From contig NZ_FOSS01000001.1 of the NCBI RefSeq assembly GCF_900114355.1, forward strand, positions 1,042,368 to 1,106,367: DNA of 64,000 bases, in the 5' to 3' direction. Position 1 is the first letter of the stretch; every line of letters begins with the position of its first letter. This DNA comes from Lysobacter sp. cf310 (GTDB taxonomy: Bacteria > Pseudomonadota > Gammaproteobacteria > Xanthomonadales > Xanthomonadaceae). Positions 32,307 to 45,176 of this stretch are shown piece by piece. The translations under genes and the position numbers were made by a program. The notes beneath the pieces were generated by a model. That model was not told where the DNA came from. It saw only the letters and a list, made by a program, of their open reading frames with translations, and did not search any database.

Positions 32307-33704
32307 TCAAAGCCCCGGCGGCAGCTTGACCTCGAAGCGAGCGCCGCCGAGCTCGTCCGACGGCACCACGTCCAGGGTGCCGCGGTAGCCGCGCACCAGG
32401 TCCTGCACGATCGCCAGGCCGATGCCGTGGCCGTGCACGCGTTCGTCGCCGCGCACGCCGCGCTGCAGGATCAGCGCGACCTTCTCCGCCGGAATGCCGG
32501 GGCCGTCGTCGTCCACCGCCAACAGCAGGCCGGGGCGGCGATTGGGCGCGGTCTCGCCCGGCGTCACCGTCAGCAGTACGCGCGAATGCGCCCACTTGAA
32601 CGCGTTCTCCAGCAGGTTGCCCAGCAGTTCCTGCAGATCGCCGGGCTCGCCGTGGAACTGCACGCCGGGCGTTACGTCGAACTCGCACAGCACGCCCTTG
32701 GCGGCGTACACCTTTTCCAGGCCGCGCACGATCTGCTCGGCATGCGGTTCGATCGCGACCGGCGCGGCGAACAGGGCGTGGCCGCCCGAGGCCGCGCGCG
32801 CGAGCTGGTAGGACACCAGATCGTTCATGCGCCGCAGTTGCAGGTCCACATCCTCGCGCAGCTCGCCGTCGGGCGCGTCGTCGTCCAGGCGCGCGCGTAG
32901 CACCGCCAGCGGCGTCTTCAGGCTGTGGGCGAGATCGGCCAGGGTGTTGCGCTGGCGGTCCAGGTTCTCGCGCTCGCTCTCGATGAAGGCGTTGATGCTT
33001 TCGGTCAGCGGTTCCAGCTCGCGCGGGTGGCGCTCGCTCATGCGCGAGGCCAGGCCGCGCTGCACGCGCTTGAGCTCGTCGATCACGCGCTGCAGCGGAC
33101 GCAGGCTCCACTGCATGATCAGCGCCTGCAGCAGCAACAGGATGAAGCCGGCGCCGCCGAGATAGCGCCACAGCGCGCCGCGGAACACCGCGACCTGGCC
33201 GCTGAGCGAGGTGGTGTTCTCGAGTATGTAGATCGTGTACGGGAATTCGGCGCGCGGGTCGCCGCCCGCGGCCCAGGTCAGGCCGATGCCGTAGCGGTAG
33301 GCCTCGCCGACGTCGCCGTTGATCTCGGTGATCGGCAGCGGGCCCTCGAAGCGGCGCTCGCTGGGCTTGAGCATGGCCGCCGGAGGCAGCAGCGGGCCCT
33401 GCGCCGAGGGCGAGTCCCAATGCCCGTTGGGCAGCACCAGTTCGGCGTACAGGCCACTGCCGGGCTGGTCGAAGCGCGGGTCGATCGGCTCGTAGGGTTC
33501 GACGAACTCGCCGCTGCGGTCGAAGTCGCCCTTGGCCGCATAGGCCAGGGCGTAGCCGTGCAGGCGTTCGCGCAGGTTGTTCTCTGCGGTGTCGAGGAAG
33601 GCGCGGTCCAGGGCGTAGCCGGCCAGGGCCAGGAAGGCCAGCAGGCCCAGACTGGCCGCGAGCAGCTGGCGGGCGCGCAGCGAGCGCGGCTGGCCCCAGC
33701 TCAC
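32307..33704 (-). CDS. phoQ: PhoQ-like sensor histidine kinase
   Basis: 465 residues, GTG start overlapping the stop of the last mini-ORF (GTGA), with AGAGG eight bases upstream. TM1 is about 13-32, then an acidic periplasmic sensor domain (33-180, FVEPYEPIDPRFDQ), TM2 (181-200) and HAMP. HisKA has phospho-acceptor His260 (DLAHSLKTPLA). The ATPase domain has the N box NLLENAFKWA, G1 DDGPGIPAEKV and G2 GHGIGLAIV. It pairs with the PhoP-like regulator 400 bases upstream, so Mg2+/antimicrobial-peptide sensing is likely. Its first 12 codons are the template of the tandem repeat. Confidence 0.9.
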   Translation of the reverse strand: MSWGQPRSLRARQLLAASLGLLAFLALAGYALDRAFLDTAENNLRERLHGYALAYAAKGDFDRSGEFVEPYEPIDPRFDQPGSGLYAELVLPNGHWDSPSAQGPLLPPAAMLKPSERRFEGPLPITEINGDVGEAYRYGIGLTWAAGGDPRAEFPYTIYILENTTSLSGQVAVFRGALWRYLGGAGFILLLLQALIMQWSLRPLQRVIDELKRVQRGLASRMSERHPRELEPLTESINAFIESERENLDRQRNTLADLAHSLKTPLAVLRARLDDDAPDGELREDVDLQLRRMNDLVSYQLARAASGGHALFAAPVAIEPHAEQIVRGLEKVYAAKGVLCEFDVTPGVQFHGEPGDLQELLGNLLENAFKWAHSRVLLTVTPGETAPNRRPGLLLAVDDDGPGIPAEKVALILQRGVRGDERVHGHGIGLAIVQDLVRGYRGTLDVVPSDELGGARFEVKLPPGL

Positions 33705-33769
33705 GGGCGCGGCCTCTGGCGCGGCAACGAAAACCGGGCGCGCAGCGAACGCGGCTGGTCCCAGCTCAT
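33701..33769 (-). CDS. Mini-ORF 5 (22 aa), overlaps the sensor-kinase start
   Basis: ATG at 33769, TGA at 33701-33703 overlapping the kinase GTG. It reads MSWDQPRSLRARFS then LPRQRPRP. Residues 1-12 nearly copy the kinase N-terminus (MSWGQPRSLRAR). Preceded by AGAGG at eight bases. Coding status is inferred from the exact start/stop overlaps. Confidence 0.5.
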   Translation of the reverse strand: MSWDQPRSLRARFSLPRQRPRP

Positions 33770-33834
33770 GACCGAGGCCTCTGGCGCAGCAACGAAAACC
33801 GGGCGCGCAGCGAACGCGACTGGCCCCGACTCAT
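33766..33834 (-). CDS. Mini-ORF 4 (22 aa)
   Basis: It reads MSRGQSRSLRAR then FSLLRQRPRS. ATG at 33834; the TGA (33766-33768) overlaps the next ATG as ATGA. Same arrangement as its neighbours. Confidence 0.45.
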   Translation of the reverse strand: MSRGQSRSLRARFSLLRQRPRS

Positions 33835-33899
33835 GACCGAGACCTCTGGCGCAGCAACGAAAACCGGGCGCGCAGCGAACGAGGCTGGTCCCAGCTCAT
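33831..33899 (-). CDS. Mini-ORF 3 (22 aa)
   Basis: It reads MSWDQPRSLRAR then FSLLRQRSRS. ATG at 33899; TGA 33831-33833 overlaps the next start as ATGA. Confidence 0.45.
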   Translation of the reverse strand: MSWDQPRSLRARFSLLRQRSRS

Positions 33900-33964
33900 G
33901 ACCGAGACCTCTGGCGCAGCAACGAAAACCGGGCGCGCAGCGAACGCGACTGGCCCCGACTCAT
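33896..33964 (-). CDS. Mini-ORF 2 (22 aa)
   Basis: It reads MSRGQSRSLRAR then FSLLRQRSRS. ATG at 33964; TGA 33896-33898 overlaps the next start as ATGA. Confidence 0.45.
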   Translation of the reverse strand: MSRGQSRSLRARFSLLRQRSRS

Positions 33965-34056
33965 GACCGAGACCTCTGGCGCAGCAACGAAAACCGGGCG
34001 CGAATCGCGTTCGCGCCCGGTCGCTTGAGTTCGCTGAAAGTTGCGTCCGCCCGCAT
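33961..34056 (-). CDS. Mini-ORF 1 (31 aa), first of the chain
   Basis: It begins MRADATFSELKRPG, unique sequence, then joins the repeat at RARFSLLRQRSRS. ATG at 34056 lies 47 bases beyond the regulator stop; TGA 33961-33963 overlaps the next ATG. No good ribosome site is visible before it, so entry may depend on ribosomes leaving the regulator gene. Confidence 0.4.
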   Translation of the reverse strand: MRADATFSELKRPGANAIRARFSLLRQRSRS

Positions 34057-34103
34057 GCCCGGCCCGACGTCCTCGCCCGGCCGCGGCCGGACGAAGCCCG
34101 TCC

Positions 34104-34787
34104 TTACTCCCCGCTGCGCGGAATGGCGAAGCGGTAGCCGCGGCCGCGCACGGTCTCGATCGGCTTCATCGCGCCGTCCGGGTCCAGCTTCTTGCGCAGG
34201 CGGCCGATGAAGACTTCGAGCACGTTGGAGTCGCGGTCGAAATCCTGCTGGTAGATGTGCTCGGTGAGGTCGGCCTTCGAGACCAGCTCGCCGGCGTGCA
34301 TCATCAAGTACTCCAGCACCTTGTACTCGTAGCTGGTCAGGTCGACGTTGGTACCGGCGACGCTGACCGTCTGCGCGGCCAGGTCCAGCATGACCGGCCC
34401 GCACTCCAGGGTCGGCTTGCTCCAGCCCGCGGCGCGGCGTACCAGCGCGTTGAGGCGCGCCAGCAGCTCTTCGACGTGGAAGGGCTTGACCAGGTAGTCG
34501 TCGGCGCCCTGCTTGAGGCCCTCGACCTTGTCCTGCCAGCTCGAACGGGCGGTCAGGATCAGGACCGGGAACTTCTTGCCTTCGTCGCGCAGGGCCTTGA
34601 TCAGCTCCATGCCCGACATCTTGGGCAGGCCGAGGTCGATGATGCCCAGGTCGAACGGGACTTCCCGGCCCATGTACAGGCCTTCCTCGCCGTCCTGGGC
34701 GGCATCCACAGCGAAGCCTTCCCGCTTCAGGCGCGCGGCCAGAGTCTCGCGCAGCGGTGCTTCGTCTTCGACCAACAGAATTCGCAT
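34104..34787 (-). CDS. phoP: PhoP-like response regulator (OmpR family)
   Basis: 227 residues. ATG at 34787 is preferred over the in-frame GTG six bases upstream because AAGGGAG sits at ideal distance. The receiver has acidic residues VEDE (7-10), phospho-acceptor Asp51 (IIDLGLP), LTARSS and LVKPF. The C-terminal winged helix ends VFIGRLRKKLDPDGAMKPIETVRGRGYRF. The wHTH and Asp contexts are typical PhoP. It is cotranscribed with the upstream PepSY-like gene (54-base gap) and the downstream kinase. Confidence 0.92.
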   Translation of the reverse strand: MRILLVEDEAPLRETLAARLKREGFAVDAAQDGEEGLYMGREVPFDLGIIDLGLPKMSGMELIKALRDEGKKFPVLILTARSSWQDKVEGLKQGADDYLVKPFHVEELLARLNALVRRAAGWSKPTLECGPVMLDLAAQTVSVAGTNVDLTSYEYKVLEYLMMHAGELVSKADLTEHIYQQDFDRDSNVLEVFIGRLRKKLDPDGAMKPIETVRGRGYRFAIPRSGE

Positions 34788-34841
34788 GGGCACTCCCTTA
34801 TCAGTCGACCGCGCCGGAGGGCGCGACCTCTACGCCAGAGG

Positions 34842-35222
34842 TTAGTCGTTGTCGTTGTCGTCGCCGCGTGTACGGCCGCCATCGTTGCGACGTTCGCGGC
34901 CCTGCTGCGGGTCGTCCATGTAGATCCGGACCCGACCGCTGGGGTCGACGACCTTGACCCGATTGACGTCGCGGCCGTCGAACGGCACGCGCTCGGCGCT
35001 CAGGACCTGGCCGCCGCCGCTTTCACGTTCGACGCGGCGCACTGCATCGGACAACGCGCGATGGCCTTCGTGCCGGTCATGGCCGTCGTCGCGGTCGCGA
35101 CGCTCCTGGCCCTGACCCTGGCCGCGGCCGCCCCGGTCCTGCTGCGCCCAGGCGTCGCCCGCCCCGACCGCGGTAGCGGCGAGCAGCAGCGTGGCCATGA
35201 CTCGGGCGGACAGGATCTTCAT
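34842..35222 (-). CDS. PepSY-like exported protein
   Basis: 126 residues. The signal peptide (about 1-26, TLLLAATAVGAGDAWAQ) is followed by a Gly/Arg/Gln/Asp-rich linker, then a single small beta domain (ALSDAVRRVERESGGGQVLSAERVPFDGRDVNRVKVVDPSGRVRIYMDDP) of PepSY type, and an acidic RTRGDDNDND tail. PepSY proteins in this position precede PhoP/PhoQ-like systems in many xanthomonads and are probably part of the signalling or of its regulon. Confidence 0.8.
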   Translation of the reverse strand: MKILSARVMATLLLAATAVGAGDAWAQQDRGGRGQGQGQERRDRDDGHDRHEGHRALSDAVRRVERESGGGQVLSAERVPFDGRDVNRVKVVDPSGRVRIYMDDPQQGRERRNDGGRTRGDDNDND

Positions 35223-35456
35223 GGGGACTCGACAGGACAACGTGACGGAACAATAGCGCACGGGCGCTGGATGAGGTGGCATTCTCGAAACGGAGCGGTG
35301 AATCCGGTCTGAACTTTTTCTTTACGTCCCAGCCACCATTCAGGCCCGTACTTGCGAGCAACGACGCGGAGCGTCGGCGAAACCGCCCGGTACTCGAATT
35401 CGAAGGCCGCGACCGCCCGTAAGCCCGGGCGGCGATGACATCGTGGTCAATGGACC

Positions 35457-44702: not shown

Positions 44703-45176
44703 TTAGTCGTCGTAGCGCCTGCGGTCGTAGCGGCTGTCGTAGTAGCGGCCGTCGTAGTAACGGTTGTCGTAGCGGTTGTCGTAACGGCGATCGTGGCGAC
44801 GGTCGTAGCGGGCGTCGTAGTACTCGGTGCGGCACTTGCCGTACTGGTTGCAGTTGGCGGTGCGGTAGCCAGGACGGTACTGGTTGCGGTAGCCGTAGGC
44901 GTTGCCGTACGGCGGCTGCGCATAGCCGTGGCGCGGCACGTTGCGGTAGTAGGTCGGGCGGCCGTAGCGGTCGCGCACCACGATCAGGCGATCGTTGTAG
45001 CCGTAGTTGCCGTAACGGTAGTACGGGGTGTTGCCGCGGATGATCACGTCGGCCACATCGACGATCACGCGGGCGAGGTCGTCGCTCTGCGCCATTGCCG
45101 GGGCCGGCGCCATCGCGACCACGCCGAAGCCGGCGGCCACGACCACCGGGGCGAGCCATCGGGACAGTGCGGTCAT
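44703..45176 (-). CDS. Exported Tyr/Arg/Asp-rich protein
   Basis: 157 residues. Signal peptide about 1-29 (FGVVAMAPAPAMAQ). A short domain (DDLARVIVDVADVIIRGNTPYYRYG, about 32-56) is followed by low-complexity RYD/YYD/NRYDN repeats to the C-terminus, encoded by near-identical GTCGTA-type triplet runs on the plus strand. A DNA-repeat expansion within the gene is likely. Structure is probably disordered; RNA, metal or envelope binding cannot be decided. Confidence 0.8.
   Translation of the reverse strand: MTALSRWLAPVVVAAGFGVVAMAPAPAMAQSDDLARVIVDVADVIIRGNTPYYRYGNYGYNDRLIVVRDRYGRPTYYRNVPRHGYAQPPYGNAYGYRNQYRPGYRTANCNQYGKCRTEYYDARYDRRHDRRYDNRYDNRYYDGRYYDSRYDRRRYDD

Follow-up and report, generated by a model that had tools for sequence, protein, structure and literature searches.

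The closest described parallels to the junction analyzed here come from mycobacteria. There, the MIRU repeat carries an ORF that overlaps the next gene by 4 nt, according to the available part of one account (PMC12548453). At the senX3-regX3 junction three copies of 77 bp are given for one strain and two copies of 77 bp plus one of 53 bp for another, and the accessible text of the same 2014 source describes the precise role of the element as still in need of study (PMC4213456). Mycobacteria also possess leaderless small ORFs at transcript starts that end in RTGA at the next gene, with a linkage that is sometimes conserved and a peptide that is not (Shell 2015, PMC4633059, in excerpt). In E. 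coli, a short ORF upstream of iraD is translationally coupled to the gene and is described as a target of CsrA repression (PMC5574718, in excerpt), and in the leaderless version of the bicistronic design a gene is expressed with the help of a translated fore-cistron placed ahead of it (PMC10367133, in excerpt). Among unidirectional gene pairs no intergenic distance is commoner than the 4-nt overlap, which supports termination-reinitiation; for this process the final 15 nt of the upstream gene can be enough, as stated in the available portion of PMC10666635.

The window considered here, the whole 64,000-nt stretch of Lysobacter sp. cf310 that was analyzed, comes from a soil bacterium in which a short leader gene, which appears to pass ribosomes on to a sensor kinase, has been copied head to tail four extra times with the stop-start overlap unbroken. 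Like the MIRU arrays, as far as these are described in the available text, it is a series of short tandem repeats that separates regulator and kinase genes within one two-component operon, and the sequence of each unit shows an ORF with a 4-nt overlap. Unlike MIRU, which the same partial sources present as apparently mobile and interspersed at several loci, the Lysobacter unit lies at a single locus, where all five matches to its core are found, and is a local duplicate of the kinase start and the leader. The two arrays probably have independent origins, and the parallel lies in the kind of operon junction that they occupy. The likeness to the ORFs of Shell 2015, so far as the excerpt describes them, is an RTGA leader whose linkage is kept and whose peptide is not; the differences are another phylum and a leaderlessness that is suggested here by −10 boxes only, mostly in other genera. 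The bicistronic design, from its excerpt, differs in being synthetic, with a single fore-cistron and an AGGAGG SD, and the iraD leader, alike in being a coupled short ORF, differs as a CsrA target whose description, in the part available, includes no repeat array. Among the matches listed from the open-access literature, available in part, we recognized neither a phoQ leader ORF in Lysobacteraceae nor a coupled mini-ORF array outside mycobacteria. What appears to be new is a locally born, register-preserving array that expands a conserved leader-ORF coupling. A small regulatory gene junction would thereby have expanded in an unusual manner, possibly to set kinase dose.

Anatomy of the regulator-kinase junction

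The features of the locus are as follows.

34104..34787, minus strand: response regulator, PhoP-like, OmpR family (Pfam Response_reg and Trans_reg_C)
33961..34056, minus strand: leader ORF 1, 31 codons, MRADATFSELKRPGANAIRARFSLLRQRSRS; its ATGCGG start is kept in the four closest single-copy relatives
33993..34021, minus strand: hairpin with a 12-bp stem and a TTTT tract at its 3' foot; CGCGCCCG in its 3' arm is the repeat breakpoint
33670..34002, minus strand: 65-bp tandem array, 5.1 copies (TRF)
33896..33964, minus strand: mini-ORF unit 1, A type, 22 codons
33831..33899, minus strand: mini-ORF unit 2, B type, 22 codons
33766..33834, minus strand: mini-ORF unit 3, A type, 22 codons
33701..33769, minus strand: mini-ORF unit 4, B type, 22 codons; its TGA overlaps the kinase GTG
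32307..33704, minus strand: sensor histidine kinase, PhoQ-like, 465 aa, GTG start (Pfam HATPase_c, 59.6 bits)

The regulator begins at ATG 34787 with AAGGGAG ahead of it (an alternative GTG lies at 34793) and has its stop codon at 34106-34104 on the minus strand. The first-pass annotation had called the regulator PhoP-like and had spoken of phoPQ loci. PhoP and PhoQ are the top NCBIfam matches of the two proteins, but both scores lie under the curated cut-offs (216.8 bits against 336 for PhoP and 182.8 against 497 for PhoQ), so that neither protein qualifies as PhoP or PhoQ by the NCBIfam equivalogs. No earlier in-frame start is available to the kinase, GTG 33704 being the first ATG, GTG or TTG after the upstream stop. 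The spacer between the two genes measures 399 nt, all but 47 of which are open to translation. An Rfam scan of 33400-35000 gave no match at the gathering score; the one sub-threshold match, to mir-598 (21.9 of 69 bits), lies inside the regulator gene. Just upstream of the regulator, a small ORF of 146 aa (34842-35282, minus strand) perhaps encodes a secreted protein; its last 126 residues had no Pfam match.

A chain of five coupled mini-ORFs built from a 65-bp repeat had been proposed for the spacer. Its starts at 34056, 33964, 33899, 33834 and 33769, the ATGA overlaps between them, the terminal GTGA at 33704 and an AGAGG placed 8 bases ahead of each following start all read as described. Two points required revision. 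Only four of the ORFs are complete repeat units; the ORF at 34056-33961 is not itself a unit and corresponds to the ancestral leader ORF. The unit, for its part, had been taken as a copy of the first 12 kinase codons; it does carry the opening 35 nt of the kinase, one base short of 12 codons, but these are followed by 30 nt from the 3' end of the leader ORF.

Within the window, the array has a TRF score of 547 (period 65, 5.1 copies, 91% matches) against 81 for the second-best tandem array in the 64 kb. It is present at only one place in the 12-contig genome, and a dispersed repeat was rejected on the basis of this single locus. Elsewhere in the window, a degenerate tandem repeat of 12 to 15 bp, GTCGTAGTAGCGGCT, occupies 44706-44820. 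The four units differ from one another at 10 of 65 columns, or at 12 when the kinase start and leader tail are counted as a fifth row. Their order is A-B-A-B followed by the kinase, with 1 difference between units 1 and 3, 5 between units 1 and 2, 6 between units 2 and 4 and 9 between units 1 and 4. This alternation suggests at least one 130-bp duplication step after an initial 65-bp step. It also bears on whether the array was created by assembly of a draft genome in 12 contigs: such an artefact is unlikely because the four units differ, and do so in an ordered, alternating way, and since the period is in addition predicted by a word pair in the genome of another species (below), we give this explanation almost no weight.

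The changes inside the array are compatible with neutrality, and no sign of selection on the copies was detected. Of 195 possible substitutions, 18 would interrupt the chain; the probability that none of these is hit is 0.31 for 12 changes and 0.38 for 10. The RNA structure z-score over the whole array is −1.11, with −0.80, −0.32 and +2.03 for sub-regions.

Conservation of the leader frame and divergence of the leader peptide

An ortholog of the kinase was identified in every one of the 20 genomes of the genus, counting the window's own, and, at E 1e-90, in 295 of the 297 genomes of the family; the comparison used one genome per species. The first-pass annotation had advised looking for the same arrangement in other Lysobacter, and the outcome is a division between the coupling and the repeat. 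An ATG-initiated ORF whose TGA overlaps the kinase start is present at 20 of 20 genus loci, and the 65-bp copies are confined to the window's genome among these 20. A further 35 loci with this kinase start were compared outside the genus; at 25 of them an ATG-initiated leader ORF terminates in RTGA. For an ATG beginning 24-150 nt upstream of the kinase start, the leader frame is thus open to RTGA at 45 of 55 non-redundant loci and the other two frames at 10 and 3 of 55, a set made up only of parsed loci with [AG]TGA at the −18 position. These observations suggest that much of the Lysobacteraceae relies on short leader ORFs to drive its phoQ-like kinases.

No ATG leader ORF was found 24-150 nt upstream at the other ten loci (L032, L033, L034, L038, L039, L059, L066, L075, L076 and L077); L034 has a −10-linked GTG leader ORF, and L066 an ATG leader ORF at −272. 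The first parsing left 15 loci unparsed (9 of 92 and 6 of 80), which were re-examined afterwards: L063 and L134 have RTGA without a leader ORF, L061, L065 and L131 start with TTGA, L068 and L071 were not found, and the rest have another kinase N-terminus without RTGA. Several loci depart from the common form. In L069, L073 and L089 (and possibly L173) the leader overlaps the kinase start by 8 nt, the start codon being followed by GCTGA. The leader ATG of L037 is ATT in its very close relative L039, a natural loss of the leader start. Where L129 has GTGA at the kinase start, L058 reads GTAA and might instead use an in-frame ATG further upstream (−39).

The leader itself varies considerably. At the 19 other genus loci it has 17 to 31 codons from the conserved start, and its N-terminus reads MRPA in the larger genus clade and MRAD or MRLH in the window's clade; elsewhere, leader peptides range from 9 to 146 codons. 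Its frame varies far less. Upstream ATGs at the kinase start fall 71 times in the overlap frame, 16 times in the third frame and 8 times in the kinase frame, as opposed to 13, 16 and 20 (overlap, third, in frame) for the regulator start of 40 loci used as a control (Fisher p 3.9e-8, with loci counted regardless of kinship); the control extends 150 nt back from the start, so that part of the preceding gene's coding sequence may be counted in it. Within 60 nt the ratio is 41:8:6 at the kinase, compared with small counts of 2:4:5 at the regulator.

Since counts of this kind are inflated by kinship, the leader start was also defined in two ways that are blind to frame. The first requires a TANNNT box 5-9 nt ahead of the start codon; of the 19 loci with such a start, 17 have it in the overlap frame and 2 in that of the kinase. 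The second takes the homologous ATG[CA]GG of the genus; the distance for L006, whose start did not fit the pattern, was assigned by hand. Changes were counted by parsimony on a single tree of 89 kinase proteins made by a quick method, covering 13 and 18 loci. On this tree, the distance of the −10-linked start to the kinase changed 8 times with 1 change of frame, and that of the homologous genus ATG 5 times with none. Twelve of the 13 length changes therefore keep the frame (p 1.7e-5 at an expectation of 1/3 each).

The peptide behaves differently. Over 14 species pairs, differences in the leader are spread over the three codon positions as 41/47/40, with no third-position bias, whereas those in the kinase are distributed as 21/3/186; the comparison was made without gaps, and 110 of the 128 leader differences come from just 5 divergent pairs. 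The mini-ORFs were accordingly rejected as peptide genes. The idea that the peptides themselves act, with four near-identical basic 22-mers sharing the kinase N-terminus and modulating the kinase, can draw on the fact that the mini-ORFs copy kinase residues 1-12 with few changes, but it would have to accommodate leader peptides that are unconserved elsewhere and vary in length as described above, and we regard it as highly improbable. Coupling rather than peptide looks to be what is under selection, and since conservation extends to the frame but not to the peptide, the leader most likely functions in cis. Two features of RTGA termination-reinitiation pairs, a 4-nt stop-start overlap and a linkage kept where the peptide is not, are found at this junction. 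The earlier suggestion that the stop-start design serves re-initiation is well supported by this comparison, in which an RTGA leader is retained throughout the genus and at many loci beyond it. If ribosomes do re-initiate, the locus family would also clearly exemplify a reading frame that is selected while the peptide it encodes is not.

Initiation signals and the hairpin in leader ORF 1

Every repeat unit has its SD-like AGAGG 8 nt before the next start, with an anti-SD pairing of −5.8 to −6.5 kcal/mol; leader ORF 1 has an SD-like GAGG 14 nt away. Across the family, pairing is weaker at kinase starts, with a median of −2.5 kcal/mol (55 loci), than at regulator starts, with −7.9 (40 loci), which favors re-initiation at the kinase. 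Independent initiation at each unit is possible because each has an SD-like AGAGG of its own and 17 of 55 kinase starts reach −5.0 kcal/mol or better. On this alternative, each mini-ORF would be started by its own AGAGG and the chain would merely keep ribosomes on the RNA, for instance against Rho-dependent termination or decay, as the nearly continuous openness of the spacer to translation would allow. However, many relatives keep RTGA with poor anti-SD pairing at the kinase, 38 of 55 being weaker than −5.0, and we consider the alternative unlikely.

Outside the genus, a different signal is found at part of the loci. A start codon 6-9 nt after a TANNN[TC] box occurs at 31 of 91 non-genus loci and at 2 of 20 genus loci, the window's not among them; the scan left 24 of 172 loci unparsed and, of 111 loci, gave the 91 from outside the genus, the genus rows being run separately, and it included the re-examined loci with GTG/ATG-GCTGA starts, which were read by eye. 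Twenty of the 31 box-linked ORFs end with a 4-nt overlap at the kinase start, which is kept even with the kinase start at other codons (−18, −21 and −42 from the conserved motif). Three end with an 8-nt overlap, three are the kinase itself in frame, that of L173 has an 8-nt overlap or falls 1 nt short depending on the start used, and four do not fit (L033, L058, L084 and L182). TANNNT at 6-9 nt is carried by 17 of 55 overlap-frame ATGs and 2 of 19 ATGs in other frames, over a background of 82 of 3,692 positions. The box therefore marks starts generally and is alone no proof of a frame preference. The non-genus box-linked loci look like leaderless leader ORFs coupled to the kinase, of the kind known in mycobacteria from Shell 2015. 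In L076 and L077, a −10 box lies 6 nt before an ATG in the kinase frame, and these are probably leaderless kinases without a leader ORF.

The window's clade has no TANNNT box ahead of leader ORF 1; L003 alone has TACGTC, 9 nt from the leader start, and the window's own leader ORF 1 has no −10 box 6-9 nt before its start and is not leaderless by this measure. At L007-L009, L017, L018, L020 and L021, the spacer upstream of the leader ORF retains a TTGACA, along with an AGGAG SD. Part of the large-genome Lysobacter clade perhaps has an internal promoter of conventional type here.

The sole part of the junction that stands out in structure is the hairpin inside leader ORF 1, which folds at −26 kcal/mol with a z-score of −2.8. 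Its 11 inner pairs are identical in 5 of 5 close relatives, the outermost A-U being G-U in one, and its sequence is unique in the genome. It could be an intrinsic terminator or attenuator between regulator and kinase, with translation of ORF 1 deciding read-through. The conservation of the 11 stem pairs together with TTTTCGTT in all five close species, amid surroundings that vary, speaks for this role, as do the z-score and the uniqueness in the genome. On the other hand, there are only four T in a row, a terminator scan reported nothing at 33993..34021, and the hairpin was observed in the window's clade only, whereas the coupling is wider; a terminator or attenuator thus seems quite improbable to us.

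Origin and possible consequences of the 65-bp array

The period of the array is explained by a pair of words in the nearest single-copy relative, L004. When the last 70 nt of its leader were searched against the first 60 nt of its kinase, the longest word common to both was CGCGCCCG, at an offset of exactly 65. In the leader this word lies within the 3' arm of the hairpin and is read R-A-R; in the kinase it forms codons 10-12, again R-A-R. Because both words lie in one reading register, each duplication rebuilds the stop-start. The L004 junction (genome G013) is identical in sequence to that of Lysobacter sp. Root916 (L112), and the other three close relatives (L003, L005 and L006) share no leader-kinase word longer than 6 nt. 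A search of the 297 family genomes for a 24-base unit core with up to 3 mismatches, which would miss a strongly diverged array, gave five matches in the window's genome, all at the one locus, an exact one in G013 and one with 3 mismatches in each of seven other genomes, so that a repeated core occurs in the window's genome only.

Taken together, we consider it probable that the kinase is served by re-initiation from the leader, that this coupling is old and selected in cis, and that the array grew by exchange between CGCGCCCG words. Ribosomes would translate the short leader ORF and restart at the kinase start, with which the leader's TGA has bases in common (RTGA); the coupling would be old in Lysobacteraceae and held by selection in cis, irrespective of the peptide encoded. 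The two words, 65 bp apart, one in the leader ORF hairpin and one in kinase codons 10-12, may then have undergone slippage or unequal exchange in the lineage of the window and so have duplicated the junction. Each copy would fuse kinase codons 1-12 in register to the last ten codons of the leader and rebuild the stop-start. With words matched in register, the array could therefore grow to four extra mini-cistrons with the kinase still coupled. We infer that ribosomes really re-initiate along it and that the array is tolerated rather than selected. The coupling recognized in the first-pass annotation fits this account, which adds the first mini-ORF as a conserved ancestor, the strong conserved hairpin and the reason for a period of 65, all three missed at that stage. 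If ribosomes do re-initiate, the junction provides a natural ladder of five consecutive re-initiations on one mRNA, from which the efficiency per step could be measured.

A more far-reaching proposal, made in the first-pass annotation, is that the array is a copy-number rheostat, in which each mini-cistron alters the fraction of ribosomes reaching the kinase, and expansion or contraction sets the kinase/regulator ratio. The architecture keeps coupling at any copy number, the A-B-A-B order suggests at least one 130-bp duplication, with copy number having probably changed more than once, and MIRU copies vary at the mycobacterial senX3-regX3 junction, according to the available text of PMC4213456. 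Against this, repeated copies occur in just 1 of 297 genomes, and the absence of chain-breaking substitutions is expected by chance at the frequencies given above. We therefore hold a rheostat to be doubtful. The same low probability applies to the wider notion of a self-copying coupling module, a junction that expands and contracts freely because its breakpoint words share a codon register on both sides of the stop-start overlap, is translated end to end, and would constitute a heritable, reversible rheostat of kinase dose that arose independently of the MIRU arrays.

Repeats of other kinds occur at related junctions. Lysobacter chinensis TLK-CK17 (L062, the same as L151) has a leader ORF of 146 codons, beginning at −437 to the kinase start, that holds a repeat of 165 bp, or 55 codons, in 2.3 copies with 97% match; the leader still ends in GTGA at the kinase with a 4-nt overlap. 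This repeat represents a second, independent expansion. TRF on the parsed junctions also returned periods of 15, 23, 26, 27 and 54 in four loci (L158, L039, L032 and L019), the repeat of L019 being located upstream of its leader ORF.
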